Shown here: positions 306 through 63,373 of the stretch, piece after piece | Layout: every line of letters begins with the position of its first letter | How positions within the stretch are numbered: position 1 is the first letter of the stretch | IMG/VR virus record: IMGVR_UViG_3300047564_001096 | Span: 1 to 63,694 of that record | DNA from: a virus | DNA: 63,694 bases | Direction: 5' to 3' (one strand) | Made by a program: the position numbers and the translations under genes | Notes under the pieces: generated by a model | What the model saw: only the letters and a program-made list of their open reading frames with translations | What the model was told of the DNA's origin: nothing | Database searches by the model: none

Positions 306-323
306 TTCCACTAGACCGTGGAA
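306..323. promoter_or_regulatory. Exact palindrome TTCCAC-N6-GTGGAA, module A
   Basis: TTCCAC (306-311), spacer TAGACC and GTGGAA (318-323) form a perfect dyad, followed by AGCTAAATAG. About 60 bp further right (381-396) is ATATAACTGGTTTCAAA, which is also found in modules B and C. The -35/-10 boxes seen in B and C are degenerate here (TTGCTT and TAAGAA on the minus strand), so promoter activity is doubtful. Confidence 0.7.
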
Positions 324-1105: not shown

Positions 1106-1176
1106 TTTCACGTGTTAGTGGAACTCTATTTAGTAACGCCCTCAAGACGCGCGCGAGAACATATAACTGGTATCCA
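1106..1176. promoter_or_regulatory. Palindrome TTTCAC-N6-GTGGAA and module B
   Basis: TTTCAC (1106-1111) and GTGGAA (1118-1123) form a dyad one base off the exact consensus. It is followed by CTCTATTTAG and then a GC-rich dyad ending in ATATAACTGG. Module C has the same order of elements. Confidence 0.65.
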
Positions 1177-1954: not shown

Positions 1955-2024
1955 TTTCACGCTATCGTGGAACGCTAAACAACCACGCTCTCGATACGCA
2001 CTCGAGAACAATAACTGGTTTCAA
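1955..2024. promoter_or_regulatory. Palindrome TTTCAC-N6-GTGGAA and module C
   Basis: The dyad TTTCAC (1955-1960) / GTGGAA (1967-1972) is followed by CGCTAAACA, a CTCGA...CTCGAG dyad and ATAACTGGTTTCAAA. It matches modules A and B. Confidence 0.65.
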
Positions 2025-41700: not shown

Positions 41701-42971
41701 CGATGGTAGAAGCAGCTGACTTTACTAAAAACTTAGCTAACTTCCAAAAAGTTGGTGAATATGGTCGTGGTATGGGAGCAGCATTTATGTTCTTCCGCCC
41801 ATCTGCAACGGGCGCTGTTCGTGCTATCGAAGCTGTTGCTCCAGCGTTTAGAGATATAGAAGCTGCAGTTGCTGAGCTGCCCCCAATAATTAGAGATAAC
41901 AAAGAAGCTTTAGCTAAGTTTAGAAAAGACTACGCAAGCAAAAAGAAATCAGCCCAACAAATGATGACGGCTTTAATGTCTATGGGTATGCTTGCGTATT
42001 TAATTTCTTTCATGATGTCTGAAGAAGATGACATGGGCAGGAACAAAGCTGCAACAGATGACATGGGTCAATGGAATCGTTTCTGGCGCATTCATATTCC
42101 TGGCGTTGATACCCCGTTTCAAATGCCGTGGGGCTTTGGTTTAGGTTCTTTTATGGCAGCTGGCGCTCAAATGATGGCAGCGTTTATGGGTAAACAGTCG
42201 TTTGGCTCAGCGTTGACTAACGTAAGCACTCAGATTGCGCTTGATTCGTTTGTTCCAATTCCTGTATCCCGCATGAGCGCTGTCGAGAATCCTGGTATGT
42301 GGTTTATAGATTCTATTACGCCAAGCACATTGCGTCCTATAGTTGAGTTAGTAGTTAATAAAAACGGTTTAGGACAGGATATTAGAAACGTAGCTAGCAG
42401 CCGCCGTATGGGCGATGCTTTCTTGGGCGGCGACAATATCCCAGAGTCTTATAAAGATATGGCAGAGTACTTTAACGTAGCTACTGGCGGTTTTGTAGAT
42501 GTAAGTCCTAACGTTATGTACTTCTTATTTAATAGTTATATGGATGGACCTGCTAAATTAGGTGATTTAATTTATAACTCTATGTATTTAGTAACAGGCG
42601 AAAAAGAATTTAAAGCCAAGACTGACGTGCCGTTTATTGGTTCGTTCATCGGTGCTGCACCTAACGTTGATAGTAGAGAGTGGACATCTACCGAGAAACA
42701 AATTTTAGAAATGAAACGTCGGTTAAATGCTCCTAATCCAGATGCAGTAGATAAATTTTTAGACAACAACCCGCTTGCAGAAATAGTCACTAATTTGTAC
42801 GATCAAAATTTAGTTGAACTTAATCGACTTCGTAAAGAAGGTAACGATATTCGCGCAGGTGGGTATACGCCTAAAGAACGTGTTGAGCTTTTAGAAATGA
42901 ATAAGATGGAGCAAAACATGGTGAAGGCTAATCTAGTTGAGATGTTTAAGGACTACGACATTAAACCCTAA
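35793..42971 (+). CDS. Giant internal virion protein with HExxH metallopeptidase site
   Basis: 2392 residues from a GTG start with an AAGGA site. Near the N-terminus EFTGELE occurs twice, and EFTGELD recurs at about 657. Residues about 545-620 are an Ala/Glu/Gln coiled coil. A 15-bp tandem repeat codes for TPSTVTP/TPPTVTP at about 620-650. HEVGH (1103-1107), in LHEVGHYLTDHIF, is a zinc-peptidase site. A long helical region follows, with a hydrophobic segment near 2060 (MTALMSMGMLAYLISFMM). It is probably ejected into the cell; the peptidase may open the cell wall or mature other proteins. Confidence 0.7.
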   Translation: MAIKEFTGELEPVKPSRLVEFTGELEKPEEVKPVKPASFSAKDTAIALGQGIVGAGKSLTDVFGAENVASRKLGEVSKTLGEQISPERQAEMQRRQVLQEKASKGTLTEEISAYLGGVTEAPVQALAQGLGSIVPYIGTGIIGGIAKLGGATITALNTVVGAAQGAGSIKGSLYDSVKQELEKSGMSPKEAAAKASKAQEYLGENFLDIAGGSALGGVGARFGVEKLLQRGAADKLSPSLIPRVGKAALAEAPLEGAQGAQEQLAINRALQKQGFDVDTFQGVAGAAARDAAVGALTGAAVGVRGPSSVAETPPPPTTEPGKETTTAPPPVPPVTPPTTDAATEALLASTIDPVTGQFVQQFATPSATETPVIAEADKQAAIKKVSELEIDNARIQAKLAAGEYKAPQAKAAAQNKLAKQQALIDELKTQIGGQDAFQQTNAGTSGVGAGIPGGSATTGAAAGATDTGLGRPGVDSDQGLESAPQDGESAQQPTLDINQLDEIELARLQELADAREAGYNIDAELVNLGNQVQERLATTTEVIDEQALADQEAKAAAAAEASRLAEEQRLATEAQAQAAEQARLAEEQRLAAEQQAALEAEQAALNEEAAAELAGEVTPPTVTPSTVTPSTVTPPTVTPPTVTPPTVTPTKPPVVEEFTGELDEETPQGAIETKVKAFEDIRKLLAFPEKLGTLDKKAKTPGVQGEVIKEEKVAKPIKWRGKKGTKTENPSPYNFLNENGYYSDKSPEQIAEQSTAIAAKDKKATVKNAVEAGVESAAFDEAYDLYDSIAYDEKVLPEIKQVMAQRQAAKDAEVDALNEERKANREAKRAQMTRDGKSEKVIKEALSVIKNVRKVKYQETKPLEFMSEQEVLDLFKKNIGTKTEKQMAKEGGQARIDAAKNRNAFVDVLNPNDKIKFSMMAESILDMEIISAVQDNKVTTAGDRRTENYRKKQEKKVISEVEQQLKDAEITAKQIEQKAERIAKRAEEKKQERAQVTKEVETEEAEAKSKLVVSIEKSIVAGSLDTVLEVIADKKKEVNESTTRNIAQSFIDLVSDFGNITIQFGNVPKGKDGQFDPSNNTITIKGENGVYTGERALDETVLHEVGHYLTDHIFDSKENQKAYLNGIKDPAKRKAAQDAINRLNNNYRLVKSKLGNKFNIPTIKEFIAEIYSNPRFQEAVAALDTGELGIDYKKFVETKPETETEEAEGYVTGTGKEIPGPVKQYVPAKESLFQKIVKNIANVLGFNIKEKEGFVNDPARGVTLKQAIEDIARIISLPTANIRGTEVSYSTAPAAAAKPGDKIPKYLHVTDPDSTDPNENKDFNLPARPVPRLRMMIKELFTTVKPWRELVRLFQDRAYWGNVLQNQLNASGLINFVNTPGEPSKGINNFMTQINLATSKGRNIYMEKISGLYTDLNLAVNGFMDATNKTVDEALKTLQIYLQALHDSERRDVKYIFTVPLSNKENIPQKGSKTGMISASLRRQQIVGDPEKGIKGLLDNPNITEAQSKALRKELDTYIFEKDAKGEFVLDANGYKKPNTKYVDPLGYSPTGNKDINVANPAFIPSGMEPIEVKTIVKKYESHPQKAEIDAVIKQLQALHKVTIELNKDAYYWAQPVSNRVAFYGFENYVPLKANKNHKMLDEELSLNFDGVGEDARRGKQFQDIAQAFVGHIAPSNNPVLQSLSEAIIAANRAGNGTDLTLSIRNALEKSDLNPDGQGLIKGTVVQHIPFSERSKSVIDAIKRENTVFHYNKDGSIDVLEIREKKIRESIRRTYETANQLTQFANTVTSTLGQLHTRYNFNFAPLNFVRDALTNAWAIGAGMGPKKSVEFITQIAGVVAKTGFTGKAFKVAAMYESKNVNQLEALAKKDPDIRDMYELIKEGGMVEYMEGLSIKSNLNKLRKEVGRSGIMTKLDQFNRVIDIWTNVFEIASRSAAYSVTKKSFHTKNIAKGMDDKPGPNGEPSPALKAAMVEAADFTKNLANFQKVGEYGRGMGAAFMFFRPSATGAVRAIEAVAPAFRDIEAAVAELPPIIRDNKEALAKFRKDYASKKKSAQQMMTALMSMGMLAYLISFMMSEEDDMGRNKAATDDMGQWNRFWRIHIPGVDTPFQMPWGFGLGSFMAAGAQMMAAFMGKQSFGSALTNVSTQIALDSFVPIPVSRMSAVENPGMWFIDSITPSTLRPIVELVVNKNGLGQDIRNVASSRRMGDAFLGGDNIPESYKDMAEYFNVATGGFVDVSPNVMYFLFNSYMDGPAKLGDLIYNSMYLVTGEKEFKAKTDVPFIGSFIGAAPNVDSREWTSTEKQILEMKRRLNAPNPDAVDKFLDNNPLAEIVTNLYDQNLVELNRLRKEGNDIRAGGYTPKERVELLEMNKMEQNMVKANLVEMFKDYDIKP
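37651..37740 (+). repeat. 15-bp coding tandem repeat
   Basis: Six copies of ctaccgttacaccc(y) code for the five-residue unit TP[SP]TV. It forms a Pro/Thr linker within the 2392-residue protein. Third-position T/C differences split the units into two types, so the array expanded in steps. Confidence 0.85.
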
Positions 42972-46103: not shown

Positions 46104-46415
46104 TTAAATCTTCTCGCCGATCATGTCCTCTAAGTATGCCTTAGCGTGAGTGGTGTTTTTAGCTGGGAGTAACCCTTTAGCCGTATCACTTTCTACTAAG
46201 TCTGTAAACACTTCAACAAGTTGTTGATTCTTAAAGCGAATAGGTTTGCCACGGAACCAGCTATAGAGCGTCATCCTAGTTACCTTTAACGCAACAGCTA
46301 CATACTTAGAGGGTAGATTTGCTTGTATGCATGCTTTAGCTAAAGCCACCCCAGGGTAGTTGGGGTTAGCCTTACTAACTGCGTTGATTAGTTCTTGACT
46401 GTATGTCCGTGGCAT
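46104..46415 (-). CDS. Small HTH DNA-binding protein, 103 aa
   Basis: The helix-turn-helix is visible in LPSKYVAVALKVTRMTLYSWFRG (about 34-56): a turn between AVALKV and RMTLYSW, as in Cro/CI or transposase-type HTH. The C-terminal half is helical and may dimerise. It lies between the ssDNA-binding-like gene and the attenuator. It is one of only two HTH proteins seen, hence a candidate reader of the dispersed palindromes. Confidence 0.7.
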   Translation of the reverse strand: MPRTYSQELINAVSKANPNYPGVALAKACIQANLPSKYVAVALKVTRMTLYSWFRGKPIRFKNQQLVEVFTDLVESDTAKGLLPAKNTTHAKAYLEDMIGEKI

Positions 46416-52272: not shown

Positions 52273-52737
52273 TTATTCACGAACGTCAATGTAATTTGCA
52301 AACTTAAACAACGATGATGCCTTATTAAAATTTAATATTAGCCCTGCTTGGCGAGCATCCGCTTCCATATCATCAAAGTTATGGGTTTTTCTATTGTTTG
52401 TTAACCACTCATCCTCCTCATAAGTTTCAATAGTTTTGTTAATCTTGTTAATGTAAGTAACCTTTGTCCACGAATTTGCCTTGCCATTATTAAACATACC
52501 TCTAACAATCTTGATGTGATTACTGTGATTCCATGCCTGTATATATCCAGCAATGCCATATAAACCGTTCCAACCGCACTTGCCTGTATACATAACAACT
52601 GACCCAGCACGGTACTCAGACATAACCAACTTGCAAGTCGAGCCTGTTGGGTTGTCTAGTGGCATAGCATTGATAGCCATTTCTTGAGCATTAGCGCTCG
52701 AACACAGCAGGCCAATGCAGAAAACAAACGCTTTCAT
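52273..52737 (-). CDS. Secreted periplasmic protein, 154 aa
   Basis: A signal peptide (MKAFVFCIGLLCSSANA) should be cut after residue 17 (ANA/QE). The mature part has two Cys that could pair (STCKL, GKCGW). I start at the ATG at 52737, which overlaps the polymerase stop as ATGA; another in-frame ATG lies two codons earlier. No family is recognised. Export suggests envelope modification or exclusion of competing phages. Confidence 0.7.
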   Translation of the reverse strand: MKAFVFCIGLLCSSANAQEMAINAMPLDNPTGSTCKLVMSEYRAGSVVMYTGKCGWNGLYGIAGYIQAWNHSNHIKIVRGMFNNGKANSWTKVTYINKINKTIETYEEDEWLTNNRKTHNFDDMEADARQAGLILNFNKASSLFKFANYIDVRE

Positions 52738-54614
52738 TTCCATTCTTCCATCTCCCCATAGTTTTTACCAACTTGAGCTTCACATGCCACAGGCAATCCT
52801 TTAGCCCAGTCTGGTGGTGTTGACATGACCTCGACAATCCATGCACAAGCCTCGTTTACTTCATCTTCGGGAACTACGCACACCGCCGCATCATGTACGG
52901 TTAGCACAGGGCGATAGCGCTCAGTGAGTTTTAACATCTGCTCGCCCACGATGATCCGTGCAAGAGCTTGAACTACGTTTTCCACAATAGACCCGCCCCA
53001 TAGAGACACGGGGCCTTTGCGTGACTTGTATTCGTATCCGCTTTTAGTTTCATCAGTGTTGAGTTTTAGGTCGGGGTAGCGGATGTACAACCCGTTTGGC
53101 AATTTAAAGCCTTCCTTGGTAACAGCCACGCACTTATGCTTGCCATAGTAGAAAGACTTGCTAGTCGGTTGCCAGTCAGCCATAGCCTTTAGAGCTTTGT
53201 CGCCTTCTCTCCAAAGCTTAACAATCATATCGTTGGTGTCTCTGTACAATTTAACTATCTCGTCACACTTATCTTTAGTGAGGTCAGCGCCAGGCGGGCT
53301 AGTCTTTAGTGTGTGCTGTAACTTTAACGACCCAGTACCATATCCCAGTCCGAGGATGCAGGTCTTACCCACGAACCTTTCAACGGGATTCTTTTTTGTG
53401 ATTTCAATGTCATATATCTTCGACGCAAAAATGGAGTAAACATCGTCCCCGTTGGCAAACTCTTTAACCAAGTCTTCCTGACCCGAAAGCCACGCAAGTA
53501 CACGTGCTTCAATTTGAGACGAATCGCAGTTGATAACCATGTAACCTTCGGGCGCAACAACCGCATTCTTAAGGGCTTTTTTCTTTTTGTCACGGCTCGG
53601 AAGGTTTTGGAAATTGACCTTATCCGACCCTGCCCAACGACCCGTATGCGCTCCATAGTATTTAAGGGGGATTGGTAATCGTCCTTTGTTTCTTGCTCCA
53701 ACGTCAATGAAACGTTCAATGCGACTCTCCTCAATAGTTGATTTAGTCCCCAAACGCACGGCGGCGAGTTGTTGGATAAACGGGTCTTCGTGTTCAGTTA
53801 GTGCAATGAACCCTGTGTCGTTCTTTGCCAACGCATAGGTTAGCTTGCCAGTAGTCTTGCTTTCCTTCATTGGCACTTCAACACCAAAATCCTCTAGCAC
53901 TTGAGCAAATTGTTTATTACTAGCTAACTTCTTACGTACTGACTCTTCGTCTTCGCATTCAAGCTTTTCTTTAAGCGTCCCCAATAACTGTAACTTCTCA
54001 TGTTTTAGTTCTTCCAGTCGGTCAACCAAAAGAGCATCGTCTACCTCCAGCACAGGATTAATAAACATCCGCAAAGTTAAATCTATCAGTTGTAATTCGT
54101 CTGCTGGGAACGCACTCGACAATACTTGGAAGAGCTTAAAAGTTAGCTCCACATCGTTCTTACAGTATTCGCCGTATTGCGCAAGCTCGCTATTTGAGAA
54201 ACCAGTTATCTGTTTGCCTTTAGCGTCAACGACCTCTGTACCCTTCTTGCCTAAGTTATAACGCTCAGATAGGTACGCTAAAGAGCCTCCGACATCCACA
54301 CCATTGGTCGCCCTACCCATGCAAAGCGTATCGAGATATAACTTGGGTTTAATGCCAAATCGCCATGCAAGGATTGCACCATCAAACATCGTGTTATGAC
54401 AAAGGAGAGCAGAATCGTTCCACGGGTACGTGGAAAGGTATTTTTGGATGTCAAGGTGTGAGCCAGAGAACCATTCAGTGATGCCCTCGCCAACCTTGAC
54501 ACCAACACCAATCACTTCAAAGCGTTTGTCCCTGATGTATTCCTCAGTTGTTAGCTTAGTTAGTGAGTAGTCTTGAGCGTAGTAAGTCTCAAAGTCTAGA
54601 GTAATGAGGTTCAT
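52734..54614 (-). CDS. DNA polymerase, family A, with 3'-5' exonuclease
   Basis: 626 residues. Exonuclease: D7-x-E9 (LDFETYY), HNTMFDGA (73-80) and YCKNDVE (150-156). Polymerase: motif A INCDSSQIEA (361-370, D364), motif B RFVGKTCILGLGYG (413-426) and motif C VHDAAV (573-578). There is no 5'-nuclease domain. It is the replicative enzyme of the phage, acting with the primase-helicase. An exact palindrome copy lies within it (54418-54435). Confidence 0.95.
   Translation of the reverse strand: MNLITLDFETYYAQDYSLTKLTTEEYIRDKRFEVIGVGVKVGEGITEWFSGSHLDIQKYLSTYPWNDSALLCHNTMFDGAILAWRFGIKPKLYLDTLCMGRATNGVDVGGSLAYLSERYNLGKKGTEVVDAKGKQITGFSNSELAQYGEYCKNDVELTFKLFQVLSSAFPADELQLIDLTLRMFINPVLEVDDALLVDRLEELKHEKLQLLGTLKEKLECEDEESVRKKLASNKQFAQVLEDFGVEVPMKESKTTGKLTYALAKNDTGFIALTEHEDPFIQQLAAVRLGTKSTIEESRIERFIDVGARNKGRLPIPLKYYGAHTGRWAGSDKVNFQNLPSRDKKKKALKNAVVAPEGYMVINCDSSQIEARVLAWLSGQEDLVKEFANGDDVYSIFASKIYDIEITKKNPVERFVGKTCILGLGYGTGSLKLQHTLKTSPPGADLTKDKCDEIVKLYRDTNDMIVKLWREGDKALKAMADWQPTSKSFYYGKHKCVAVTKEGFKLPNGLYIRYPDLKLNTDETKSGYEYKSRKGPVSLWGGSIVENVVQALARIIVGEQMLKLTERYRPVLTVHDAAVCVVPEDEVNEACAWIVEVMSTPPDWAKGLPVACEAQVGKNYGEMEEWK
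54418..54435. promoter_or_regulatory. Exact palindrome inside the polymerase gene
   Basis: TTCCAC-GGGTAC-GTGGAA. It codes for part of STYPWND, in a reading frame different from the other coding copies, so it is not a shared protein motif. Confidence 0.75.
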
Positions 54615-54775
54615 TCGCTATCTTTTTCTTTTCTCTCGTCTAGCTCAACTTTTGCTAACTCTACTAAGTAATCTTTTTCATCTATACCAAGCTTCTTAGC
54701 TAACTCTAATTGAACATCGGTCACTATAAATTGGTGAAATGTTTTACCGTCTTTTTTTATTTTGATGGTCTTCAC
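54611..54775 (-). CDS. Small protein with scaffold-tail-like module, 54 aa
   Basis: GTG start (54773-54775) behind AAGGA; the stop overlaps the polymerase start as ATGA. About 30 residues (VTDVQLELAKKLGIDEKDY...) align without gaps to the last 30 residues of the scaffold (TKTQVALAKKFGLSPEQY...), with about 12 identities. The unit looks like a two-helix module. Function unknown; it may bind a shared partner. Confidence 0.65.
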   Translation of the reverse strand: MKTIKIKKDGKTFHQFIVTDVQLELAKKLGIDEKDYLVELAKVELDERKEKDSE

Positions 54776-54806
54776 TTAAATCCTTAAATAACAAATTCAA
54801 TAGATA

Positions 54807-54840
54807 CAAAAATAGGGAGCAGAGCATAAGCCCGACTCCC
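54807..54840 (-). terminator. Rho-independent terminator after the HTH-DUF3310 gene
   Basis: On the minus strand GGGAG...CTCCC closes an 11-pair stem with one mismatch and a TTAT loop, followed by TATTTTTG. It separates the early arm from the polymerase unit. Confidence 0.85.
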
Positions 54841-54846
54841 TAGGGG

Positions 54847-55263
54847 TTACTTGCTTAGATTATTAAGTTCTCTAGCGAGATACCATTGCGCCTTCTGCAA
54901 ATCTTCTAACTTACTTCCTTTGTGGTCAGCACGTGTGATGTACTTGACTACATTGCCAAGGTTATAGTTAAGAGACTTTGCCTCGATGAAATCAATAGTC
55001 TCAATCCCGCCCGCCTTGTAGTGTGGAGGGTGGTTGACGTTATCAACACCTTGCATCCTTAGCTTTCCACGCTGGGGTGGAACTCTATTTACTGGTGCAA
55101 GAGCCGTCATTGGTAATGACTTAGCTTTCTTCTTAGCATTGTATTTAGTTTGATACACAGTATTGATACTCACTCCAACGGCTTTAGCTACTTCACTTGC
55201 AAGAGCCTTTGGATGACTACGGATATAGCGTAACACTTTGGTGGCTTTGGTTAACTTCTTCAT
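54847..55263 (-). CDS. Fusion of N-terminal HTH and DUF3310 nucleotide-kinase-like domain
   Basis: 138 residues. The first 45 form an HTH (KVLRYIRSHPKALASEVAKA, then GVSINTVYQTKY) with a basic tail. A linker (about 48-72) follows. The C-terminus is DUF3310: NHPPHYKAGGIETIDFIE, NYNLGNVVKYITR and LQKAQWYLAREL, the domain of T7 gp1.7, a nucleotide kinase. Fusion to a DNA-binding part is unusual. The linker DNA itself carries an exact palindrome (55065-55082), so self-regulation is conceivable. Confidence 0.8.
   Translation of the reverse strand: MKKLTKATKVLRYIRSHPKALASEVAKAVGVSINTVYQTKYNAKKKAKSLPMTALAPVNRVPPQRGKLRMQGVDNVNHPPHYKAGGIETIDFIEAKSLNYNLGNVVKYITRADHKGSKLEDLQKAQWYLARELNNLSK
55065..55082. 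promoter_or_regulatory. Exact palindrome inside the HTH-DUF3310 gene
   Basis: TTCCAC-GCTGGG-GTGGAA, flanked by TTAGC and CTCTATTTA. Its left flank on the minus strand (TAAATAGAGTTCCAC) is identical to that of module B at 1106. Confidence 0.8.
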
Positions 55264-55458
55264 TTACTTCTCCTTTTTAGTTGAACTACGTTTTACTGCG
55301 ACAATTCCTGTTTCATCTTTAGCGTTGCGAGCCTTAAGCATTGCATCTGCGTAGGTATATGCCACTTTTGCTACATCGTTAATAAGAAGTTCGTTTTGTT
55401 GAATTAAGCCCATTAATGCAAACATGGCAAAACAATCTCTTAGGTCTTGCTCATTCAT
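55264..55458 (-). CDS. Small hypothetical phage protein, 64 aa
   Basis: Begins MNEQDLRDCFAMFALMGLIQ, then VAKVAYTYADAMLKARN and a Lys-rich tail. The RDxFAxxALxGL...YxxADAMLKAR pattern is frequent in small phage proteins of unknown role. It overlaps its upstream neighbour by 8 bases. Confidence 0.7.
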   Translation of the reverse strand: MNEQDLRDCFAMFALMGLIQQNELLINDVAKVAYTYADAMLKARNAKDETGIVAVKRSSTKKEK

Positions 55459-55597
55459 CTTGTTTGTCCTTTAAAAATTCTTCCATTAACTCAATCGCCC
55501 GATTGAAACCAGTTGTATAAGCCTCCTCAAGTCCGCCATCAGAAGTTATAAACTTCTCGTCTTCAATCCAGTCTTCAAACTCTTTCTTTGCTCTCAT
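55451..55597 (-). CDS. Very small hypothetical protein, 48 aa
   Basis: A 48-codon frame from an ATG (55595-55597) overlapping the VRR-NUC stop as ATGA and overlapping the next start by 8 bases. Acidic and helical (begins MRAKKEFEDWIEDEKF). Continuous coupling on both sides supports a real gene. Confidence 0.65.
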   Translation of the reverse strand: MRAKKEFEDWIEDEKFITSDGGLEEAYTTGFNRAIELMEEFLKDKQDE

Positions 55598-55968
55598 GAG
55601 AAATGCACCTCCATATATTGATTAACATTAGATTCATTGATGACAAAAGCATAGCCACCATTCTTTTCAATCCGATCAAGGTTATCCATTTGCAATGCCG
55701 TAGGTTTGTTAGCACCCGACTTAATCTCTAAGCCGTAGAACTTTCCTTTGTGACACACGACAATGTCAGGCGCACCGCTACTTCCGTATCCACCTGTGGC
55801 TGGCATGATGTAATAGATTCCTTTTTCTTTAAGATATTTCTTAACTACGTCTTTAACTTTTCCTTCGGGTGTCATCGCCATATCAATTTCTTCCTGTTCT
55901 TGTTGTTGAAGGGTAGTCTGTCTCTTCCAAAACCTACCCCAATAAAGTCTTTCTTCTTTATTCACCAC
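55594..55968 (-). CDS. VRR-NUC domain nuclease
   Basis: 124 residues from a GTG. The VRR-NUC core is clear: SSGAPDIVVCHKGKFYGLEIKSG gives D68, E81 and K83, and Q93 follows. Such stand-alone nucleases act on branched or flapped DNA. An ATG at 55881 (residue 30, behind AGGA) is an alternative start and would give the bare domain; the long form fills space that would otherwise be empty. Confidence 0.85.
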   Translation of the reverse strand: MVNKEERLYWGRFWKRQTTLQQQEQEEIDMAMTPEGKVKDVVKKYLKEKGIYYIMPATGGYGSSGAPDIVVCHKGKFYGLEIKSGANKPTALQMDNLDRIEKNGGYAFVINESNVNQYMEVHFS

Positions 55969-56305
55969 GCAATGCCATTAAAGATTTATAGGAGAGGATG
56001 ATGCAAAACCAACTGTCACTTGCTCGCCATCCTATATCTCTGAAATTACTATCAACTGTCGTAGTCATCAGATGTAATTTAGTTACGTCATGGTCGCTTA
56101 CAATCTGCTTCGCATTTGCCAGCACCATCGCCATCTTGGTCTTAACTTCATCAGGCAATGTGTGTTCATCAAATACCCGATTAAAGTCATCACCAACATA
56201 TATGGTGTAGGAGTTTCCTTCCCTATGCAAAGGGACACGATAGAGGTTGAAGTCATACTGGTGAACTACTGGGCTTAAATCCCTGAGCATGGAATCAATG
56301 TCCAA
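55958..56305 (-). CDS. Hypothetical early protein, 115 aa
   Basis: An unrecognised soluble protein, mixed alpha/beta (NLYRVPLHREGNSYTIYVGD, TLPDEVKTKMAMVLANAKQI). Its start overlaps the preceding gene by 31 bases. It belongs to the block of unknowns downstream of the VWA gene, and the section STRPVNEFNLHW in the preceding product resembles no part of it. Confidence 0.65.
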   Translation of the reverse strand: MDIDSMLRDLSPVVHQYDFNLYRVPLHREGNSYTIYVGDDFNRVFDEHTLPDEVKTKMAMVLANAKQIVSDHDVTKLHLMTTTVDSNFRDIGWRASDSWFCIILSYKSLMALRGE

Positions 56306-57210
56306 TGTAGGTTGAACTCATTTACTGGGCGAGTAGAAATATTTATCAGGTCAAGGTCAGGGTTGTATCCACTCTTGGCTGGAACGATATTTGCGTAGAA
56401 CTCGGTAACATTCTTACCCTCTGCATGAACCTTGTTCATAAGCATGACTGCCTTGAACTCGTCAGGCAATTCCTTTACACGCTTGAACGGCTTGACTTCA
56501 TGGAAGTAATACTCGTCGTGACCTTGTCTTGGCATCGCTTTAACTGAACCTATAACTAAATGATTTAACTTATCTGCACCGATTGCATAGAACTCATTGA
56601 GGAAAAATCTTTCAATATCTTTTCGCTTCTCTACCTTGATTCTATCTTGCCCATTCCATTTGTCAAGTACTTCTTTACAATTATTTAGATTTAAATTACT
56701 AGGACTTTCCCCTAGTAAGATTACCTTGAGCATTGTATGAATTTCGTCGGCAGAAAAATTAGTTTGCTTCCAATCTCGACCATGATGAGAGTCCATCTGA
56801 TTAATACCAGCATTAAAAGATTCTTTACAGACTGTCATTAGTGTTCCACCGATGGGTGGAACGACATTTTGTCGCTTAAGTGTAGCCATCAGCGTTGAGA
56901 GTTTTTTACTATGCAAAGTCTCTCGGTCAGCAGAGTCAGAGCCACGCTCTTTCTTGTAGAAAGGCGAGCGATAGTTATACACGTCATGCCCATCTTCCTT
57001 GTCTACCCACACCTTTGCCACCATGAAACCGCTAGATTCAGCGAGTAAAAAGCTAGTAGGACTACTACGGCTTAGAGCATGAGGATCAACTTTGTCTACA
57101 ACCTTCAGACCATACTTAAAGTTTAGTTCCTGTATGAGTCTTTTAGCTGACGAGTCATTAATAAGATGCTCGAGATGCTCACTTTCAAATCCTTCGTATA
57201 TGAGTTTCAT
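56275..57210 (-). CDS. Hypothetical early protein, 311 aa
   Basis: I start at the ATG at 57210 (MKLIYEGFES) behind AAGGAGAAG, not at an upstream in-frame codon. Mixed charge, no signal peptide, no recognised motif. It is coupled to the 55958 gene and separated by 11 bases from the 57222 gene. Position in the MoxR/VWA block makes it a candidate partner of that machine. An exact palindrome lies inside it. Confidence 0.7.
   Translation of the reverse strand: MKLIYEGFESEHLEHLINDSSAKRLIQELNFKYGLKVVDKVDPHALSRSSPTSFLLAESSGFMVAKVWVDKEDGHDVYNYRSPFYKKERGSDSADRETLHSKKLSTLMATLKRQNVVPPIGGTLMTVCKESFNAGINQMDSHHGRDWKQTNFSADEIHTMLKVILLGESPSNLNLNNCKEVLDKWNGQDRIKVEKRKDIERFFLNEFYAIGADKLNHLVIGSVKAMPRQGHDEYYFHEVKPFKRVKELPDEFKAVMLMNKVHAEGKNVTEFYANIVPAKSGYNPDLDLINISTRPVNEFNLHWTLIPCSGI
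56844..56861. promoter_or_regulatory. Exact palindrome inside the 311-aa gene
   Basis: TTCCAC-CGATGG-GTGGAA. It codes for VPPIGG on the minus strand. Confidence 0.75.
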
Positions 57211-57221
57211 ATTACTTCTCC

Positions 57222-58238
57222 TTATAGTTGTTCTACTTCTTTGCCATTGACAAACACATCCACGCCCCACTCACTTGGAGGGTATGCTTCGTTAGGTACA
57301 TACTCTGTGAGTTTCATAACTGATGGATTACTCTTGTACAACTCCTTGTTCAGCTTACGTTTGAGATTACTGAACACTACGTCTAACTCCACCTCTCGCC
57401 TGTAACTACTGCCATTGGGTTCAGCGAACGCACGATGTTTTGAATACAAACTCTGAACGTCGTACGCAAGTGCGTACGCAATGCCAGCATCTAGTGATGC
57501 AGTATTTAGATTCTCCTCGGCAAACTTAATAAGTTTCTCTTGCTCTGCGCTATGCAAAGACCAATTTTCTGTTGTTATGCCCAATGACTTTAATACATCA
57601 GCCATCGCTTCCATGTAGCCTTTCCAGTCCATCGCCTTGAGCATGACTTCGTTGATTTTGTAGAAGTCTGTGTATCGGCTAAGAAAGTACTTGGCATCCT
57701 TACGACTAACACGCTTGCCAACAACTTTGTAAACGCTACTCTCATGGGGCATCATCGTCTCGCAGTTAAGTCTCATACCTTTAAAGATTGGATGAAAGAT
57801 TGAACTCACGTAGTTTGACTTATATATCATTCCACCATGACGTGAACTCCTAAGAAACCACCCACTCGCCCAGTTAGACATAATCATGTTGTCGCCCTGT
57901 CCGTAATATTTAGCAGTAAATTCAAACGTATTGTCTGAACGCACTATGCCCAACTCACTAGGAACTGAACTATAACTTTCATAGACGGTGTTTCCTTCCC
58001 AGTCTTCTCTCTCGTGAATAGTGCCTTGGTTGGCTTGCCACTCTTCTTTCGTATGCTCATTACGCTTATGGGTATAACCATACCGCACCACATACACTTG
58101 CTCGCCGTTACGCTCTTCGCTTACAAAGTCTTTAGTGTTGTGTCGTCTGTCACCAATGGGAAACCGATTGGTTGTCCCTCGGTATGGCTTTTGAGTTTTA
58201 GTAATGTCGGTAAGTCTGTCCCACGTCAATGCTTTCAT
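57222..58238 (-). CDS. Hypothetical early protein, 338 aa
   Basis: Unrecognised, soluble, Tyr/Arg-rich in its first half (RFPIGDRRHNTKDFVSEE, YVVRYGYTHKRNEHT), helical in the second (EQEKLIKFAEENLNTASL). AAGGAGAAGG site. It lies two genes below the VWA protein. No nucleotide-binding or metal motif is visible. Confidence 0.7.
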   Translation of the reverse strand: MKALTWDRLTDITKTQKPYRGTTNRFPIGDRRHNTKDFVSEERNGEQVYVVRYGYTHKRNEHTKEEWQANQGTIHEREDWEGNTVYESYSSVPSELGIVRSDNTFEFTAKYYGQGDNMIMSNWASGWFLRSSRHGGMIYKSNYVSSIFHPIFKGMRLNCETMMPHESSVYKVVGKRVSRKDAKYFLSRYTDFYKINEVMLKAMDWKGYMEAMADVLKSLGITTENWSLHSAEQEKLIKFAEENLNTASLDAGIAYALAYDVQSLYSKHRAFAEPNGSSYRREVELDVVFSNLKRKLNKELYKSNPSVMKLTEYVPNEAYPPSEWGVDVFVNGKEVEQL

Positions 58239-58423
58239 TGTCCTTCTCCTTTAAAGTGTTTATCTATATCGTTTAGTATGTCTTTCCAAATCTTTACACT
58301 AAACTCATCGCCTTCGTGTGTTGCTATCCTTCCTAATGCTATCGTGTATGCTCCTTCTCCATGACGTTTTATCAAGTCTTCTACAAGCCCATGTTTGATT
58401 CGTGCATATCCGCCGTCGCCCAT
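58235..58423 (-). CDS. Small hypothetical protein, 62 aa
   Basis: Begins MGDGGYARIKHGLVEDLIKR; helical, charged. It lies between the VWA gene (two bases away) and the 338-aa gene (four-base overlap), so it is part of one translational unit. Function unknown. Confidence 0.65.
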   Translation of the reverse strand: MGDGGYARIKHGLVEDLIKRHGEGAYTIALGRIATHEGDEFSVKIWKDILNDIDKHFKGEGQ

Positions 58424-58425
58424 GC

Positions 58426-59742
58426 TTACTCCCTTTCAAAGATAACTTTCTTACCGCATGGAATTTCTAAGCCACGGTTCTGAGTAATCATCCACAGGGT
58501 AGGTGGAACGATATTCCACTCGATGTCATGCTCGACGTAGCCATCGGTGAACACAATCACACACTCTGCGTTAAGTTTCTTCTCATTGATGTAAGTCGCA
58601 ACAGACCCCACGTGAGTACCACCACCGCCTAATGGTTTTAGTAATGATGCAATGTTGTTAAACGATTCGGGCTTGAAGACTTGTTCGCCATGCACCATGG
58701 TGTCCCACCACAAAACACGTACCGTTTCGGGTTGCACAAGGTCACAGATGGATGCCAGTTCTGAGGCAAACTCGGTAAGTTCAGCACCGCCGATAGAGCC
58801 TGACGTATCAATGGCTACGATAACCTCGCCGATAGTTTCGTTCTCCATGCTTGGCATATAAATATCATTTGCCATCTGACGCTTGTTCATCTTGCGCCAA
58901 GTGAACTCATCCTTGCCTTTCATCGCTGATGAAACAAAGTCACGTAGTGCATCTCGCCAATCAATCTTGGGTTCAAGTAACTCTCCGATAGCACGTGGCA
59001 TCTTTGCACCCATACGACCAGCGAGCATACCGCCCTCACGCAAAGCCTTATCAATCCCATCCGATAGTTCTTTGAGTTCTTCGGGAGTTATGTCCTTAAA
59101 TGATTCCCAGTCATGCTCATCGAAACCATCGCCACCCATGTCATACTCTTTGCCATTGGCTTTGATTTTGTTATCTTGCTTTCCACCCTGTGATGGAGAA
59201 CTATTCTGCGAATCATCATTGCCATCGCCTTGTTCGTCATCATCACTAGGTGAGCCTGATGAGCTACCCTTACCTTTACCTCGCTGAGGATTCTCTTTAC
59301 GGATATAGTTGTAGACCTCACGCATATTCCAGTTGTGAAAGAATGGGTCATACAACGCACCTTCGGGCAACGCAACAATAGCCTCGTTACCTCCGCTAAT
59401 AGTTCCTTTGATGTTGAAGATGATGTCGTTGACTACAAAATCCGCCGCCATGTTTGCAATCTTAGAATCTTCCTTGAACATATCCTTGCCACGTGGGATT
59501 TGTTTCAATGCCACATGAAGATTCTCATGGAGGACAAGACCACGCAACTTGGGTTCACAGTCGATAGTCTCTAAGAATGGCTTAGAGTATCTCTTGTTGA
59601 CACCATCGGTGTATGCCGTAAACATATCATCGCTCACCTCTGACTTACCCATCAGCATGACACCGCTATACAACGCAGTCTCAGGATGTTTCATTAGTGC
59701 GATGTGCGCTTTCTTCAAGCGAACTTCTTGTTTGTTATTCAT
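58426..59742 (-). CDS. VWA-domain protein with HExxH metallopeptidase-like N-terminus (CobT/DUF2201-like)
   Basis: 438 residues. N-terminus: HENLH (72-76) followed by NMAADFVVND (about 97-106), the zinc-peptidase-like part of the DUF2201 family. Residues about 153-195 are an acidic, Ser/Gly-rich linker as in CobT. C-terminus: a VWA domain with MIDAS D-T-S-G-S (312-316), the Thr in GGGTH (about 375) and FTDG (about 397-400). VWA proteins of this kind work with MoxR AAA+ ATPases, which is the gene just upstream. The target is unknown. Confidence 0.85.
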   Translation of the reverse strand: MNNKQEVRLKKAHIALMKHPETALYSGVMLMGKSEVSDDMFTAYTDGVNKRYSKPFLETIDCEPKLRGLVLHENLHVALKQIPRGKDMFKEDSKIANMAADFVVNDIIFNIKGTISGGNEAIVALPEGALYDPFFHNWNMREVYNYIRKENPQRGKGKGSSSGSPSDDDEQGDGNDDSQNSSPSQGGKQDNKIKANGKEYDMGGDGFDEHDWESFKDITPEELKELSDGIDKALREGGMLAGRMGAKMPRAIGELLEPKIDWRDALRDFVSSAMKGKDEFTWRKMNKRQMANDIYMPSMENETIGEVIVAIDTSGSIGGAELTEFASELASICDLVQPETVRVLWWDTMVHGEQVFKPESFNNIASLLKPLGGGGTHVGSVATYINEKKLNAECVIVFTDGYVEHDIEWNIVPPTLWMITQNRGLEIPCGKKVIFERE

Positions 59743-59745
59743 TTG

Positions 59746-59841
59746 TTACTCCTTGTTAATTAGACAATATAAAAATCCTGTAATCACACCCAAACCGTAC
59801 ATGATTAAAGACCACATAAATATTCCGATTCCGACATCCAT
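59746..59841 (-). CDS. Single-pass membrane microprotein, 31 aa
   Basis: A 31-codon frame, begins MDVGIGIFMWSLIMYGLG, almost entirely one membrane helix ending in INKE. Strong GGAGG site. Its stop overlaps the ribosome site of the VWA gene, so the two are coupled. It lies exactly between the MoxR and VWA genes and could tether them to the membrane. Confidence 0.6.
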   Translation of the reverse strand: MDVGIGIFMWSLIMYGLGVITGFLYCLINKE

Positions 59842-59845
59842 AGCT

Positions 59846-59863
59846 TTCCACCTCCTCGTGGTT
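59846..59863. promoter_or_regulatory. Degenerate palindrome over the microprotein's ribosome site
   Basis: TTCCAC-CTCCTC-GTGGTT, preceded by ATAGCT as in other copies. On the mRNA the spacer is the GAGGAG ribosome site, so binding or folding here could control translation. Confidence 0.6.
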
Positions 59864-59869
59864 AGTTAA

Positions 59870-60943
59870 TTAGAACAACTCGTGATTGTTTTTAGCCCAC
59901 TCTGCAATCTGCATATTGTGGCGAGCCAACTTGGTTGCCTTGGTGTTACGCATCATCATGGTAAAGAACACCGCTTGCACCTCTGAACTAGGAATCTTAT
60001 TAACGAACTTCATGAACTTGTTCAACTCGTCTTGAGTCTCTAGCACGTCGACTGCTTGGAACATAATCATTAACTGCGCTGATACCTCGTCGGGAACTTT
60101 AACTCCGTCTGGATCTTTGACGATGTCTTTTACATCCATCAGAGTCTTCTCTAGCGATAGAAACGCTGACATATCACCAGCACCAGCAAGACCGATAGTG
60201 CCAGCCAATGCGACCATCGTTGCGTTCTCACCCAATGTATCCCGATTACGCACAATCACGTCGCACTTAGCTAGAGACCTTGGCGAACAGAATGATAGTT
60301 GAGTCTTCTTGGGGTTGAACACGTATGGGTTGTCATCTTGGTTGCCATCACGATACGATGCCAATGTCCTTGGGAACAACGCAACGAACGCACGAACAAC
60401 ACGAGAGATACCTCTAGATGATGCCCACTCTAGCCAGTCATTGACTGATGGTTTGCTCATCTCCATGATGCACACACGATTACCAGCATGGGCGAGCATT
60501 GTGTCGCCGACCCCGTCGCTTGCATTATTCGACGTGCCGAAAACTATGCTTCCACTTGGTAGTGGAACGTCACCTACCATTCTCTCCAACATTAGTCGGG
60601 TAAAGATAACTTGCAATAGCTTTGGTGCTTTCATGAACTCGTCGAGCAAGATGACCTTTGGCTTAGGAGAGTCAAGCTTGAAGAGAGACGAAACATAATA
60701 CTCAAGAGACTTACTAGCATGATTGGGTATCGTCATACCTACGTCGGACATATCCTTGACAGGACAGTCCACATAGATATAGTCGTACTTGTCGCCATGG
60801 TCTGCTTCCATCATGGACAATATAGAAGTCTTACCACACCCAGGCTCAGAGACTATGATTGGTGTGATTTCTGAACCTATTAGGGGAATGACTTTGCGTA
60901 ACTCGTTGATGGTTACGGTTGCATTGAAGTTAAGTTTGCTCAT
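59870..60943 (-). CDS. MoxR-type AAA+ ATPase (CobS-like)
   Basis: 357 residues. Walker A EPGCGKTS (33-40), Walker B VILLDEF (97-103), sensor 1 GTSNN (136-140) and a sensor-2-like SPRSLAKC (about 220-227). The family forms hexameric rings that work with VWA proteins in chelation or in protein assembly. Neighbours are a DUF3150-like gene upstream and the VWA gene downstream. An exact palindrome lies in the gene. Confidence 0.9.
   Translation of the reverse strand: MSKLNFNATVTINELRKVIPLIGSEITPIIVSEPGCGKTSILSMMEADHGDKYDYIYVDCPVKDMSDVGMTIPNHASKSLEYYVSSLFKLDSPKPKVILLDEFMKAPKLLQVIFTRLMLERMVGDVPLPSGSIVFGTSNNASDGVGDTMLAHAGNRVCIMEMSKPSVNDWLEWASSRGISRVVRAFVALFPRTLASYRDGNQDDNPYVFNPKKTQLSFCSPRSLAKCDVIVRNRDTLGENATMVALAGTIGLAGAGDMSAFLSLEKTLMDVKDIVKDPDGVKVPDEVSAQLMIMFQAVDVLETQDELNKFMKFVNKIPSSEVQAVFFTMMMRNTKATKLARHNMQIAEWAKNNHELF
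60550..60567. promoter_or_regulatory. Exact palindrome inside the MoxR gene
   Basis: TTCCAC-TTGGTA-GTGGAA. It codes for VPLPSG on the minus strand, between the Walker B and sensor 1 regions. Confidence 0.75.
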
Positions 60944-60959
60944 TTGTATTTCTCCTTGA

Positions 60960-61871
60960 TTAGATTGAATTGAAACTACCGAACTTGGAAAGAATATCGT
61001 CTATGCCTTCCTTAACATGATGGCGAACTGCATCGGAATCTCGAATGTCCTCTGCCTTCACACCACGTAATACTTCTTCTAGCGATGCACGTGCCTGTTC
61101 CAATCCTGAATCATTCTTAAGATTGAATCGCTTAAAACTTTCGCACATTTCTAGGGCTTTTTGTATCGTTGTGTCGTAAATCTTGCGACGCTTGGTGCGA
61201 ATCTCGCCGTTGACCTCTGACTCATCGACACCGCAACAATGCGAGATGGACTCCATAACCTCGACCATGCGTTCTGATTGTTCTTGCGCAATGGATTCGA
61301 TAATGCCGTGAGCCTGCTTTTTGTATGTATTAAACAAGTCATCAGCGATGTCCTCTGCTATCCCACAGCGAAAGTCGTTCATTGGCACTTCGGACACATA
61401 CAGGTTCAAGCTGAACTTGGAGTGAACTTGTTCTTTAGTTGGGTAGTCATCTCGGTTGAACATAGTACCTTGCTTGAAAGCCATGTCGGACACGATTGAA
61501 TCGTAGTCGCTTGTTAATGAATCCACTAACGCATGGAAAGCTATTTGATGTTCGTGATACTCTTGCTTGAACTTAGGCACGTCAACGCTTGGCAACAAAT
61601 TCTGCGATTGATTCCAGCGATAGGTGCGACGTTGAAGCCAGTTGTATACGGTCTGCCGATAATTCACCACCGCCTTGTGCTTGGGATGATTAGCCAACAG
61701 ATTCTTAACATACCTGCCCGCGGACTTATCCGCATTCTTTGCCGTAGTAACTTCATCACTGATGCCACGGTCTTGCTTGGTTGCTGACCACACGCTGATG
61801 TCTACGCTTACTAGGACTGCTGAACTAGCAAGGCTAATCAGGTGATCGGGTTTGGTTAATTCCATATTCAT
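60960..61871 (-). CDS. DUF3150-like protein, 303 aa
   Basis: Helix-rich protein beginning near SLASSAVLVSVDISVWSATK. Its middle has FRCGIAEDIADDLFNTYKKQ and it ends in a coiled coil. It resembles DUF3150 proteins, which I know from MoxR-VWA gene groups. The call rests partly on that context. AAGGAG site; first gene of the machine, downstream of the promoter at 62008-62036. A degenerate palindrome lies at 61521-61538. Confidence 0.65.
   Translation of the reverse strand: MNMELTKPDHLISLASSAVLVSVDISVWSATKQDRGISDEVTTAKNADKSAGRYVKNLLANHPKHKAVVNYRQTVYNWLQRRTYRWNQSQNLLPSVDVPKFKQEYHEHQIAFHALVDSLTSDYDSIVSDMAFKQGTMFNRDDYPTKEQVHSKFSLNLYVSEVPMNDFRCGIAEDIADDLFNTYKKQAHGIIESIAQEQSERMVEVMESISHCCGVDESEVNGEIRTKRRKIYDTTIQKALEMCESFKRFNLKNDSGLEQARASLEEVLRGVKAEDIRDSDAVRHHVKEGIDDILSKFGSFNSI
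61521..61538. promoter_or_regulatory. Degenerate palindrome inside the DUF3150-like gene
   Basis: ATCCAC-TAACGC-ATGGAA followed by AGCTATTTG. Two mismatches to the exact dyad, but the right flank fits. Confidence 0.5.
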
Positions 61872-61895
61872 ACACTTCTCCTTGGTTTGATTGAA

Positions 61896-61982
61896 CTACG
61901 CTAAAAGTAAATCCACTATCACGTGGTAAGCTAAATAGCCCACCGCTACAACAACTAATAACTTCCCCCAAAAGTCTTCCAT
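61896..61982 (-). CDS. Single-pass membrane microprotein, 28 aa
   Basis: A 28-codon frame (begins MEDFWGKLLVVVAVGYLAYH) behind a GGAGGAGG site, 26 bases below the -10 of the promoter at 62008. It is one membrane helix. First gene of the MoxR/VWA transcript. The palindrome at 61911-61928 is part of it. Confidence 0.6.
   Translation of the reverse strand: MEDFWGKLLVVVAVGYLAYHVIVDLLLA
61911..61928. promoter_or_regulatory. Degenerate palindrome in the MoxR/VWA leader
   Basis: ATCCAC-TATCAC-GTGGTA followed by AGCTAAATAG, the same flank as at 306 and 63268. Confidence 0.6.
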
Positions 61983-62007
61983 AAAAGTATCCTCCTCCAG
62001 TTTCATA

Positions 62008-62036
62008 AGTATACCATAACTTTACATTTGAGTCAA
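62008..62036 (-). promoter_or_regulatory. Strong sigma70-like promoter P1
   Basis: On the minus strand, TTGACT (62031-62036), 17 bp, TATACT (62008-62013). The 29 bases are identical to those at 63345-63373. Above it lies an A-rich tract with AGTCATACA, also shared. Confidence 0.9.
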
Positions 62037-62059
62037 TGGTGATGTATGACTTTTTTATC

Positions 62060-62473
62060 TCACTCCCAGTCCACATACACCGACCGATTGACTCCTACCC
62101 AGTCATGTTCGCCGTTACCCCACACTTCCTCGACATTGTCATTAGTGTCCTCACCCACACGAGCAAACGCACCACCTATATATAAGTCATTCGTGTTGCC
62201 CTCGTCAGCCCACTCTCGTGCCAATCCCATCAAGCACTCGTGACATTGGACATCGGGGTAAGACTCATACCACTTGACTTCTTCGGCAAAGAACCTAATC
62301 TCCAGCTTGTCTTCAAGAACCTTAAAGACTTCATCCTCTTGTTCTGAAAAGCACAATGCCGTTGTCTCCTTTGACTTCGCTTCCGCTATGAATGTATAGA
62401 ACGAATGCTTGGCTTTAGTGTCATCCTCGCCCCCGAATCGTATGGTGTATGCAACAGTTGACCTATACCCCAT
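62060..62473 (-). CDS. Hypothetical early protein, 137 aa
   Basis: Acidic, mixed fold (begins MGYRSTVAYTIRFGG). Includes CHEC in a DVQCHECLMGLAREWADEG section. I do not recognise it. It is the last gene before promoter P1, driven from the promoter at 63345. Confidence 0.7.
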   Translation of the reverse strand: MGYRSTVAYTIRFGGEDDTKAKHSFYTFIAEAKSKETTALCFSEQEDEVFKVLEDKLEIRFFAEEVKWYESYPDVQCHECLMGLAREWADEGNTNDLYIGGAFARVGEDTNDNVEEVWGNGEHDWVGVNRSVYVDWE

Positions 62474-62657
62474 GTTCTTCTCCTATGAATGTTCTAACCC
62501 AGTCTACGTATATCTCGTCTGCGTAGAGCCACCTTGCCATTCGCTTACTGTTTGGCACGTCTATCGGGTAATTAACCAATAGAGCATGGTTGTCGCACCG
62601 CACCAGCTTGTAGAACTCAGGCTTGTCGGGCTTGCGATATAACTTAATGACTTTCAT
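62463..62657 (-). CDS. Small hypothetical protein, 64 aa
   Basis: Begins MKVIKLYRKPDKPEFYKLV; probably one small beta domain with a C-terminal helix (YADEIYVDWVRTFIGEE). GAGGTGG site; overlaps both neighbours. Unknown. Confidence 0.65.
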   Translation of the reverse strand: MKVIKLYRKPDKPEFYKLVRCDNHALLVNYPIDVPNSKRMARWLYADEIYVDWVRTFIGEEHGV

Positions 62658-62835
62658 ACACCACCTCTTTCAGTTTGACCAACTCTCGGTCAAGGGCTTC
62701 CTCGCCCACCTCGTTGCGGATACGCAAAATCCTGTCTACGTTTCCACCATCTAGTAGAAACCTAGCCATCTCGTTACCGCCTGACCGAACCGCATTGATA
62801 ACTTGGAGTAGAAATATCTTATCTTCGCCTTTCAT
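62644..62835 (-). CDS. Small hypothetical protein, 63 aa
   Basis: Helical protein beginning MKGEDKIFLLQVINAVRSGG, acidic and basic residues evenly mixed (VDRILRIRNEVGEEALDRE). Overlaps its neighbours by 14 and 4 bases. Unknown. A degenerate palindrome (62742-62759) lies in it. Confidence 0.65.
   Translation of the reverse strand: MKGEDKIFLLQVINAVRSGGNEMARFLLDGGNVDRILRIRNEVGEEALDRELVKLKEVVYESH
62742..62759. promoter_or_regulatory. Degenerate palindrome in the 63-aa gene
   Basis: TTCCAC-CATCTA-GTAGAA, one mismatch to the exact dyad. Confidence 0.5.
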
Positions 62836-63050
62836 TTGATTAGCCCTCCCTTGTTGTTGAGTCCCTTCAAGTCCTCTCTGTTGGTAATCATCATGTAGTT
62901 TGACTTGTGCATTGGTGCAACTGTGCGAACCACCTTCGTTGCTAGGTCATCACCGCATGGCATACAAATCGCATAGCCGATGGCTAACCGTTCCGCAGCG
63001 TAGGTCATACCGCATAGCTTACATTGTGGATTAAAAGTCTCATCAATCAT
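62832..63050 (-). CDS. Small zinc-finger protein, 72 aa
   Basis: Two CxxC pairs (CKLCGM near 10-15 and CMPCGD near 29-34) form a zinc ribbon; the rest is basic. Such early small proteins may bind host polymerase or DNA, but nothing here shows which. Overlaps both neighbours. Confidence 0.7.
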   Translation of the reverse strand: MIDETFNPQCKLCGMTYAAERLAIGYAICMPCGDDLATKVVRTVAPMHKSNYMMITNREDLKGLNNKGGLIK

Positions 63051-63238
63051 GGTAGGTATCCTCTGTCGTCACCGAACGATGCTTCGTACTTGTCCAACCA
63101 GTCGTTGAACTCTGCTTCGTATATCGCCCATGCTTCGTCGCTATCTTCCATTCCACGATATCGTGGGTCGAGAATTGGCTTTTGTTTGCTAGCACGATGT
63201 TCTTCAAATTGAATCAAAGCATTTTTAAGTTTGCCCAT
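63047..63238 (-). CDS. Small hypothetical protein, 63 aa
   Basis: I start at the ATG at 63238 (MGKLKNALIQFEEH) behind AAGGAGAAGG rather than at a far upstream codon that would run through the leader palindrome. First gene after the promoter at 63345. Acidic, helical (EAWAIYEAEFNDWLDKYE). Unknown. Confidence 0.7.
   Translation of the reverse strand: MGKLKNALIQFEEHRASKQKPILDPRYRGMEDSDEAWAIYEAEFNDWLDKYEASFGDDRGYLP
63151..63168. promoter_or_regulatory. Degenerate palindrome in the first early gene
   Basis: TTCCAC-GATATC-GTGGGT; two mismatches on the right half. Confidence 0.45.
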
Positions 63239-63267
63239 GTCCTTCTCCTTCATTAGAGTTGAATGAT

Positions 63268-63285
63268 TTCCACTACCTCGTGGAA
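63268..63285. promoter_or_regulatory. Exact palindrome in the leader below the right-end promoter
   Basis: TTCCAC-TACCTC-GTGGAA followed by AGCTAAATAG. It lies about 60 bp below the -10 box, as the copy at 61911 does below P1. Confidence 0.8.
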
Positions 63286-63344
63286 AGCTAAATAGCGTTG
63301 AAGGGTTCGTCTTGCTTGGTAATAACTTGCCCATCAACATTATT

Positions 63345-63373
63345 AGTATACCATAACTTTACATTTGAGTCAA
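63345..63373 (-). promoter_or_regulatory. Strong sigma70-like promoter P2
   Basis: On the minus strand, TTGACT (63368-63373), 17 bp, TATACT (63345-63350), identical over 29 bases to P1. It drives the right-end early genes. Confidence 0.9.

Follow-up and report, generated by a model that had tools for sequence, protein, structure and literature searches.

A dispersed palindrome array in the early arm of a virus contig and its relatives: candidate operators for a phage-encoded repressor

The closest published likeness to the array described here is found in the Cluster O mycobacteriophages (Corndog), which carry a 17-base-pair (bp) repeat, TGTTCGG-N3-CCGAACA, whose function was left open and for most sites of which control of initiation was argued against (PMC4351075). 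The stoperators of Cluster A mycobacteriophages (L5 repressor) are many repressor sites, dispersed along the genome in promoters and short intergenic gaps (PMC9283540). In this study, we describe an array of an 18-bp palindrome, TTCCAC-N6-GTGGAA, in the IMG/VR virus contig IMGVR_UViG_3300047564_001096. The window is the whole stretch, positions 1-63,694 (63,694 bases), and 16 of these dyads lie along its early, leftward-transcribed arm. We hold, with moderate confidence, that the 16 palindromes are stoperator-like operators for one phage-encoded dimeric helix-turn-helix (HTH) repressor, which would close the early arm. A first-pass annotation had proposed, more generally, that the array is bound by one dimeric protein, and the sequence evidence for this is strong: an independent matrix, selection at synonymous sites, uncompensated half-site changes and phage-specific words across the family.

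The palindrome array and its relatives

All six exact copies reported in the first-pass annotation were recovered at their positions (Table 1), with no seventh in the window, against a mean of 0.00 in 100 dinucleotide-preserving shuffles; dyads with at most one mismatch number nine, against a mean of 0.14 in such shuffles. At three or fewer mismatches the pattern loses its distinctness (35 matches versus 24 expected), and counting copies with two or three mismatches by the pattern alone was dropped in favor of the independent matrix, so that copies are counted here only with at most one mismatch or with matrix support. The matrix spans 22 bp and was built from 139 sites of 12 other phages, the window sites being left out to avoid circularity. 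It returned 16 sites in the window, with scores of 15.3-23.9, all within 54418-63285 and 306-1972. These include each of the seven near copies listed earlier and three additions, at 56367, 57830 and 59181. An equal density in the late arm had been set beforehand as the refuting outcome of such a scan; none was found, and the remaining ~50 kb (3.45-54 kb) hold zero sites scoring 10 or more. The dyad is thus limited to the early arm, which, from the gene order, appears to wrap from one contig end to the other. Along leftward transcription there is about one site per 0.6-0.8 kb, roughly one per gene inside the operon, and the polymerase gene holds the last site of the array (54418) in its 5' part.

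On the transcribed (minus) strand, the core reads CTAWWTAG-CK-TTCCAC-N6-GTGGAA, most clearly among the leader copies. The flank AGCTAAATAG, described as common to many copies, occurs exactly at three of them (306, 61911 and 63268) and in part at three others (1106, 55065 and 61521); on the transcribed strand it reads CTATTTAGCT-TTCCAC. This flank is the sole oriented part of the site and is confined to the subgroup with the TTCCAC word; the site itself is the dyad. Four exact copies (54418, 55065, 56844 and 60550) are intragenic and use two reading frames, in agreement with the earlier description. The copy at 63268 is within a called open reading frame, yet more likely lies in a leader, ahead of an internal start with a good ribosome site.

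Relatives were gathered through the VWA protein and through the extended motif, and 80 related sequences were scored for arrays. Seventy-two exceed all 20 of their own shuffles, and 65 exceed the highest of all 1600 shuffles. The TTCCAC word is common to most contigs with VWA identity above ~60%, and a CCCAGC-N4 word was found among closer relatives. More distant relatives carry other words in the same arm, including CTTCAG-N6, GTTTCA-N8, CTGACA-N1, CTGACA-N2, CTAACA-N1 and N2, GTTATA-N3, TTAAAC-N2 and TTCTAAC-GTTAGAA. Most of 15 long records have their sites concentrated in the early arm. One contig (L102) combines the half-site CTAACA with both spacers, the N2 sites at 78-10329 and the N1 sites at 2662-12066, which is possibly an array in transition.

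Arrays are also present in cultured phages. The Planktothrix phage Pag-Yong1 has ~33 copies of GGTTCAG-N-CTGAACC, many of them 18-29 bp (about 22 bp) before start codons; its records (L191/L192) are GC-rich and the sites resemble ATCCGGTTCAG-N-CTGAACCGGAT. The Alcaligenes phage QDWS535 has 15 copies of TCCTAA-N2-TTAGGA, and the Caulobacter phage GB2A has ~11 mostly intergenic copies resembling TTGCAACNNNNNNGTTGCAA, the right half of which reads as a -35 box. In the stretch 18549-18830 of GB2A (L194), one dyad lies 50 bp before gp49, annotated as a transcriptional repressor and adjoining the primase; the paper describing GB2A makes no mention of the palindrome or the repressor. CRP-902 yielded only a weak candidate, no arm-wide array was found in the isolates HTVC027P, DSL-LC04 and Rollin, and no near-identical phage was found in GenBank. 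A literature search, which was incomplete and does not establish priority, found no account of arrays in this phage group. No Pfam phage integrase was found in the 15 records; the phages are therefore read as lytic, and a prophage-type role is not supported.

Coding copies were compared with relatives of 75-99% protein identity, at codons that encode the same residue and agree in their first two bases. In dyad arms, 240 of 253 third bases are retained (94.9%), against 78 of 108 in spacers and 15058 of 21274 elsewhere (70.8%); as the sequences are related, the nominal Fisher value overstates independence, but the comparison with spacers is made within the sites themselves. At 54418, a spacer codon alters the amino acid (LSTYPWN to LSTLPWN or LSTFPWN), and 12 of 12 dyad bases are kept in most close relatives. 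The 56844 dyad is mostly retained with zero to two mismatches in relatives down to 47% protein identity, and TTCCACAGTCTAGTGGAT is present at the position of 56367 in several relatives. Copies disappear in more distant relatives, that at 54418, for example, below ~70% identity. Loss of coding copies by synonymous drift had been named as evidence that would speak against the array; within the word-sharing group, the dyad arms resist such drift, and the array is not refuted.

Table 1. Dyads, predicted promoters and HTH proteins in the window
Feature	Coordinates	Strand	Matrix score	Context
Dyad, exact	306..323	-	22.5	Intergenic, after terminator-like hairpin; flank CTATTTAGCT
Dyad, 1 mismatch	1106..1123	-	17.5	Intergenic; abuts -35 of TTTACA-N17-TAGAAC, gene 448-1059
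Dyad, 1 mismatch	1955..1972	-	21.7	Intergenic; abuts -35 of TTTACT-N17-TATAAC, gene 1223-1861
Xre-type HTH protein, 103 residues	46104..46415	-		Between SSB-like gene and primase; best candidate binder
Dyad, exact	54418..54435	-	23.7	In DNA polymerase gene 52734-54614, frame 2
HTH-DUF3310 protein	54847..55263	-		Argued against as binder
Dyad, exact	55065..55082	-	23.9	In HTH-DUF3310 gene
Dyad, degenerate	56367..56384	-	15.3	In gene 56275-57270
Dyad, exact	56844..56861	-	22.0	In gene 56275-57270
Dyad, 2 mismatches	57830..57847	-	18.8	In gene 57222-58238
Dyad, 2 mismatches	59181..59198	-	16.6	In VWA/DUF2201 gene
Dyad, 2 mismatches	59846..59863	-	17.5	Intergenic, 104 bp ahead of VWA gene start
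Dyad, exact	60550..60567	-	21.9	In AAA ATPase gene 59870-60943
Dyad, 2 mismatches	61521..61538	-	19.3	In gene 60960-61871
Dyad, 2 mismatches	61911..61928	-	16.2	~+81 from promoter 62036-62008; 40 bp ahead of gene 60960-61871
Second predicted early promoter	62008..62036	-		29-base stretch TTGACTCAAATGTAAAGTTATGGTATACT, identical to 63345-63373
Dyad, 1 mismatch	62742..62759	-	16.1	In gene 62644-62835
Dyad, 2 mismatches	63151..63168	-	21.7	In gene 63047-63340
Dyad, exact	63268..63285	-	23.3	Probably leader of gene 63047-63340; ~+61 from promoter 63373-63345
Predicted early promoter	63345..63373	-		TTGACT-N17-TATACT, TG before -10

The candidate binder

Two HTH proteins had been suggested as binders of the dyad, and the Xre-type protein of 46104-46415 is the best candidate. 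Its place beside the primase is syntenic in 14 of the 15 long records, and a profile search of 40 records, many too short to extend to the locus, found the Xre-type HTH in 20. A Cro/Xre-type gene likewise adjoins the primase in GB2A and CRP-902. The predicted fold is a confident helical bundle with a single HTH (predicted local distance difference test, pLDDT, 92.6). The one exception among the long records, G023, has an array with a rigid word and an unrelated HTH_17 protein one gene away (E 8e-9); record G028 ends before the relevant genes and G036 is without them, and neither counts as a counterexample. The other suggested protein, HTH-DUF3310, is largely excluded, as the HTH is lost in the orthologues of L032-L035 while L032 and L033 keep clear arrays.

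In a partial Mantel test, helix 3 of the HTH is correlated with the word beyond phage relatedness (r 0.30), with the peak within the HTH. Records L069 and L071 share the same helix 3 and the half-site TCTG and differ in spacing, which would fit a protein whose helix 3 recognizes the half-site and whose dimer spacing is set elsewhere in the chain. Covariation of word and HTH, with a first p of ~0.0005, was set aside as decisive evidence once a sliding-window control had weakened it; the correlation is suggestive only.

Several observations weigh against this candidate. Other 10-residue windows in unrelated proteins reach a partial correlation of 0.44, above that of helix 3, and the helices of L065 and L058 are similar while their words are different. 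Additionally, the protein matches PDB folds (C-proteins, antitoxins, Aca1 and lambda repressor) weakly, at a best E of 0.3, and no dyad is found near its gene in the window.

It is rather unlikely that the array, though of the kind proposed, is bound by another phage protein, such as a small early protein or the 303-residue protein of 60960-61871, or by a host protein, with 46104-46415 acting otherwise. All 15 long records have the gene at 60960-61871, which lies inside the array, the correlation with the word is not unique to the HTH, and G023 has an array without the Xre HTH. However, the 303-residue protein, which has no recognizable DNA-binding domain, shows a negative partial correlation with the word, and the many different words among related phages would be hard to explain by a host protein.

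Site position and the proposed shut-off of the early arm

Promoter calls are consensus matches only, and in the window alone such matches are no commoner than in shuffles; the family-wide statistic carries the promoter case. Among 239 strong sigma-70-type matches counted family-wide on the transcribed strand, 101 are followed within 200 bp of the predicted start by a dyad centre, where ~36 are expected. Forty of these dyads fall at +40 to +60, but the stretch from 0 to +20 has none, while dyad position relative to matches on the opposite strand is flat. This placement, relative to the predicted starts, is that of a roadblock. Sites tend to fall inside genes and, on the downstream side of strong early promoters, at +40 to +80, and 31% of family sites are intergenic versus 13% of the array span outside called genes. 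Promoter overlap as a general rule was rejected for this phage group, in which sites are mostly downstream of predicted starts.

As the first-pass annotation had observed, some copies abut -35 boxes, those at 1106 and 1955 stopping one base short of a weak -35 (TTTACA/TTTACT), and some are in leaders (61911 and probably 63268). Terminator-like hairpins precede the sites 1106 (1217-1196), 1955 (2061-2038) and 306 (443-414). A second repeated element, close to CCAGTTATATGTTCTCGAGCGCGTC, lies between each hairpin and the dyad, within ~100 bp, in these three leaders. The genes 448-1059 and 1223-1861 encode adjacent related proteins (203 and 212 residues), neither with a Pfam or PHROG match. A separate terminator-like hairpin, dyad and promoter accompany each of the two genes.

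From the positions of the sites we infer repression rather than activation, and the following course of events. Early in infection, host RNA polymerase would start at the strong leftward promoters at ~63.37 and ~62.04 kb, and transcription would cross the early arm to reach the replication genes. The regulator would be made late in that early transcript, most likely from 46104-46415 beside the primase, and on accumulating would fill the sites ~60-80 bp downstream of promoters, beside the -35 of the promoters at 1-2 kb and inside the operon genes. The bound regulator may block both initiation and elongation, as stoperators do, resulting in a delayed shut-off, in which the early arm closes at the changeover to late transcription. 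Distant relatives, having other words, would be ignored by such a block. Among the roles proposed earlier, that of a repressor or silencer is the one favored by sites below promoters and inside genes. More tentatively, this lytic family might silence its own early operon by ~5-30 dyads per genome; each lineage would have changed its word and half-site spacing together while its regulator drifted or gave way to an unrelated HTH protein (G023), which would give a superinfection-type specificity without lysogeny.

Two points count against shut-off by simple repression. The first is that 69% of called sites are in coding DNA, which means that simple promoter control cannot be their whole function; the second is that the weak -35 boxes directly below 1106 and 1955 would equally suit an activator, and activation at the 1-2 kb promoters is possible. 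A dual switch, in which the TTGACT/TATACT promoters are shut off and the weak TTTACT/TATAAC ones turned on by a single protein, so that the genes at 0.4-1.9 kb come on later, is improbable. Its geometry, with the dyad ending one base before a weak -35 and after a terminator, is seen at two or three sites only, the in-gene sites are without a promoter, and the GB2A sites overlap the -35, which suits repression.

A role of the palindromes as stem-loops of the transcript, for pausing, nut-like antitermination or protein binding, is very improbable, and the reading as an RNA stem was rejected. It is true that some sites are in leaders, that RNA of TTCCAC-N6-GTGGAA is able to form a 6-bp stem, that the flank CTATTTAG loosely resembles boxA, and that many Pag-Yong1 sites precede start codons by ~22 bp. 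However, 725 family sites hold 339 dyad-pair deviations, of which 253 are one-sided and unpaired, 72 one-sided wobble, 7 Watson-Crick compensated and 7 two-sided and unpaired. Half-sites that change independently and without compensation point to the half-site pair of a protein dimer on DNA rather than to an RNA stem. Additionally, the loops are free to vary, words with N0-N1 spacers would fold into poor stems, the flank is missing from the other word groups, and Rfam gave no match in the window. The regular spacing might also suggest partition, compaction or replication-initiator sites for a ParB-like or nucleoid protein, yet this is hardly credible, and a partition role as first proposed is unlikely, with sites confined to early genes and concentrated near promoters and outside genes, phages apparently lytic, and no ParA or ParB in general PHROGs/Pfam scans of the main arm proteins, none of which was a search aimed at ParA/ParB.

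Elsewhere in the window, 35793-42971 encodes a giant protein of 2392 residues with an LPD38 domain, unmatched in 5 of the 15 long records; G023 and G024 have a different giant protein at this locus. A perfect GGGGGGC-loop-GCCCCCC hairpin occurs in two copies (2479-2496 and 2746-2763), and the contig ends (1-40 and 63655-63694) carry inverted copies of TTCCAAAATTCCAA, perhaps a terminus or an assembly breakpoint.

Comparison with described systems

Operators of the Cro/CI type (lambda and relatives) share with the array their palindromic form and, in the reading proposed here, an Xre-fold dimer and early promoter control, and the phage-encoded Xre-fold protein that an Xre/Cro-type regulon requires is present in the window (46104-46415). 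GB2A looks closest to this type, whereas the window differs by its 16 sites, most of them intragenic and away from promoters. The Start Associated Sequences of Cluster K are a repeat a short distance ahead of start codons, a position also seen in Pag-Yong1; they are linked to translation starts (PMC4351075), and most window sites are not.

Like the stoperators of Cluster A, the window sites are dispersed along the early operon (16, none outside the arm), and specificity diverges between relatives (PMC9283540). Stoperators are 13-bp, asymmetric and orientation-dependent sites, served by a monomeric two-domain repressor in temperate phages (PMC9283540), whereas here the sites are palindromic, the 15 records are without integrase and the candidate is a 103-residue single-HTH protein. 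The array would work as stoperators do, but it lacks two features that define them, an asymmetric site and a two-domain repressor of temperate phages.

The repeat of Cluster O and the array of the window are both dyads with a variable centre in apparently lytic phages. The Cluster O dyad is invariant and present in >30 copies, denser in one arm, with ~1/3 inside genes, no integrase and a predicted dimeric binder (PMC4351075). It differs in belonging to one cluster with one word, with sites genome-wide and mostly away from promoters (PMC4351075), whereas here there are many words across the family, sites that are arm-confined in the window and positioned relative to promoters, and 16 copies, some degenerate. 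The cultured members (Caulobacter GB2A/RW, Planktothrix Pag-Yong1 and Alcaligenes QDWS535) make the function testable, and the family offers a natural experiment in how a many-target regulator shifts its specificity when all sites need joint rewriting. The published puzzle of the Cluster O arrays recurs here in dozens of related phages, which carry different words and in which a candidate regulator keeps a fixed place among the genes.

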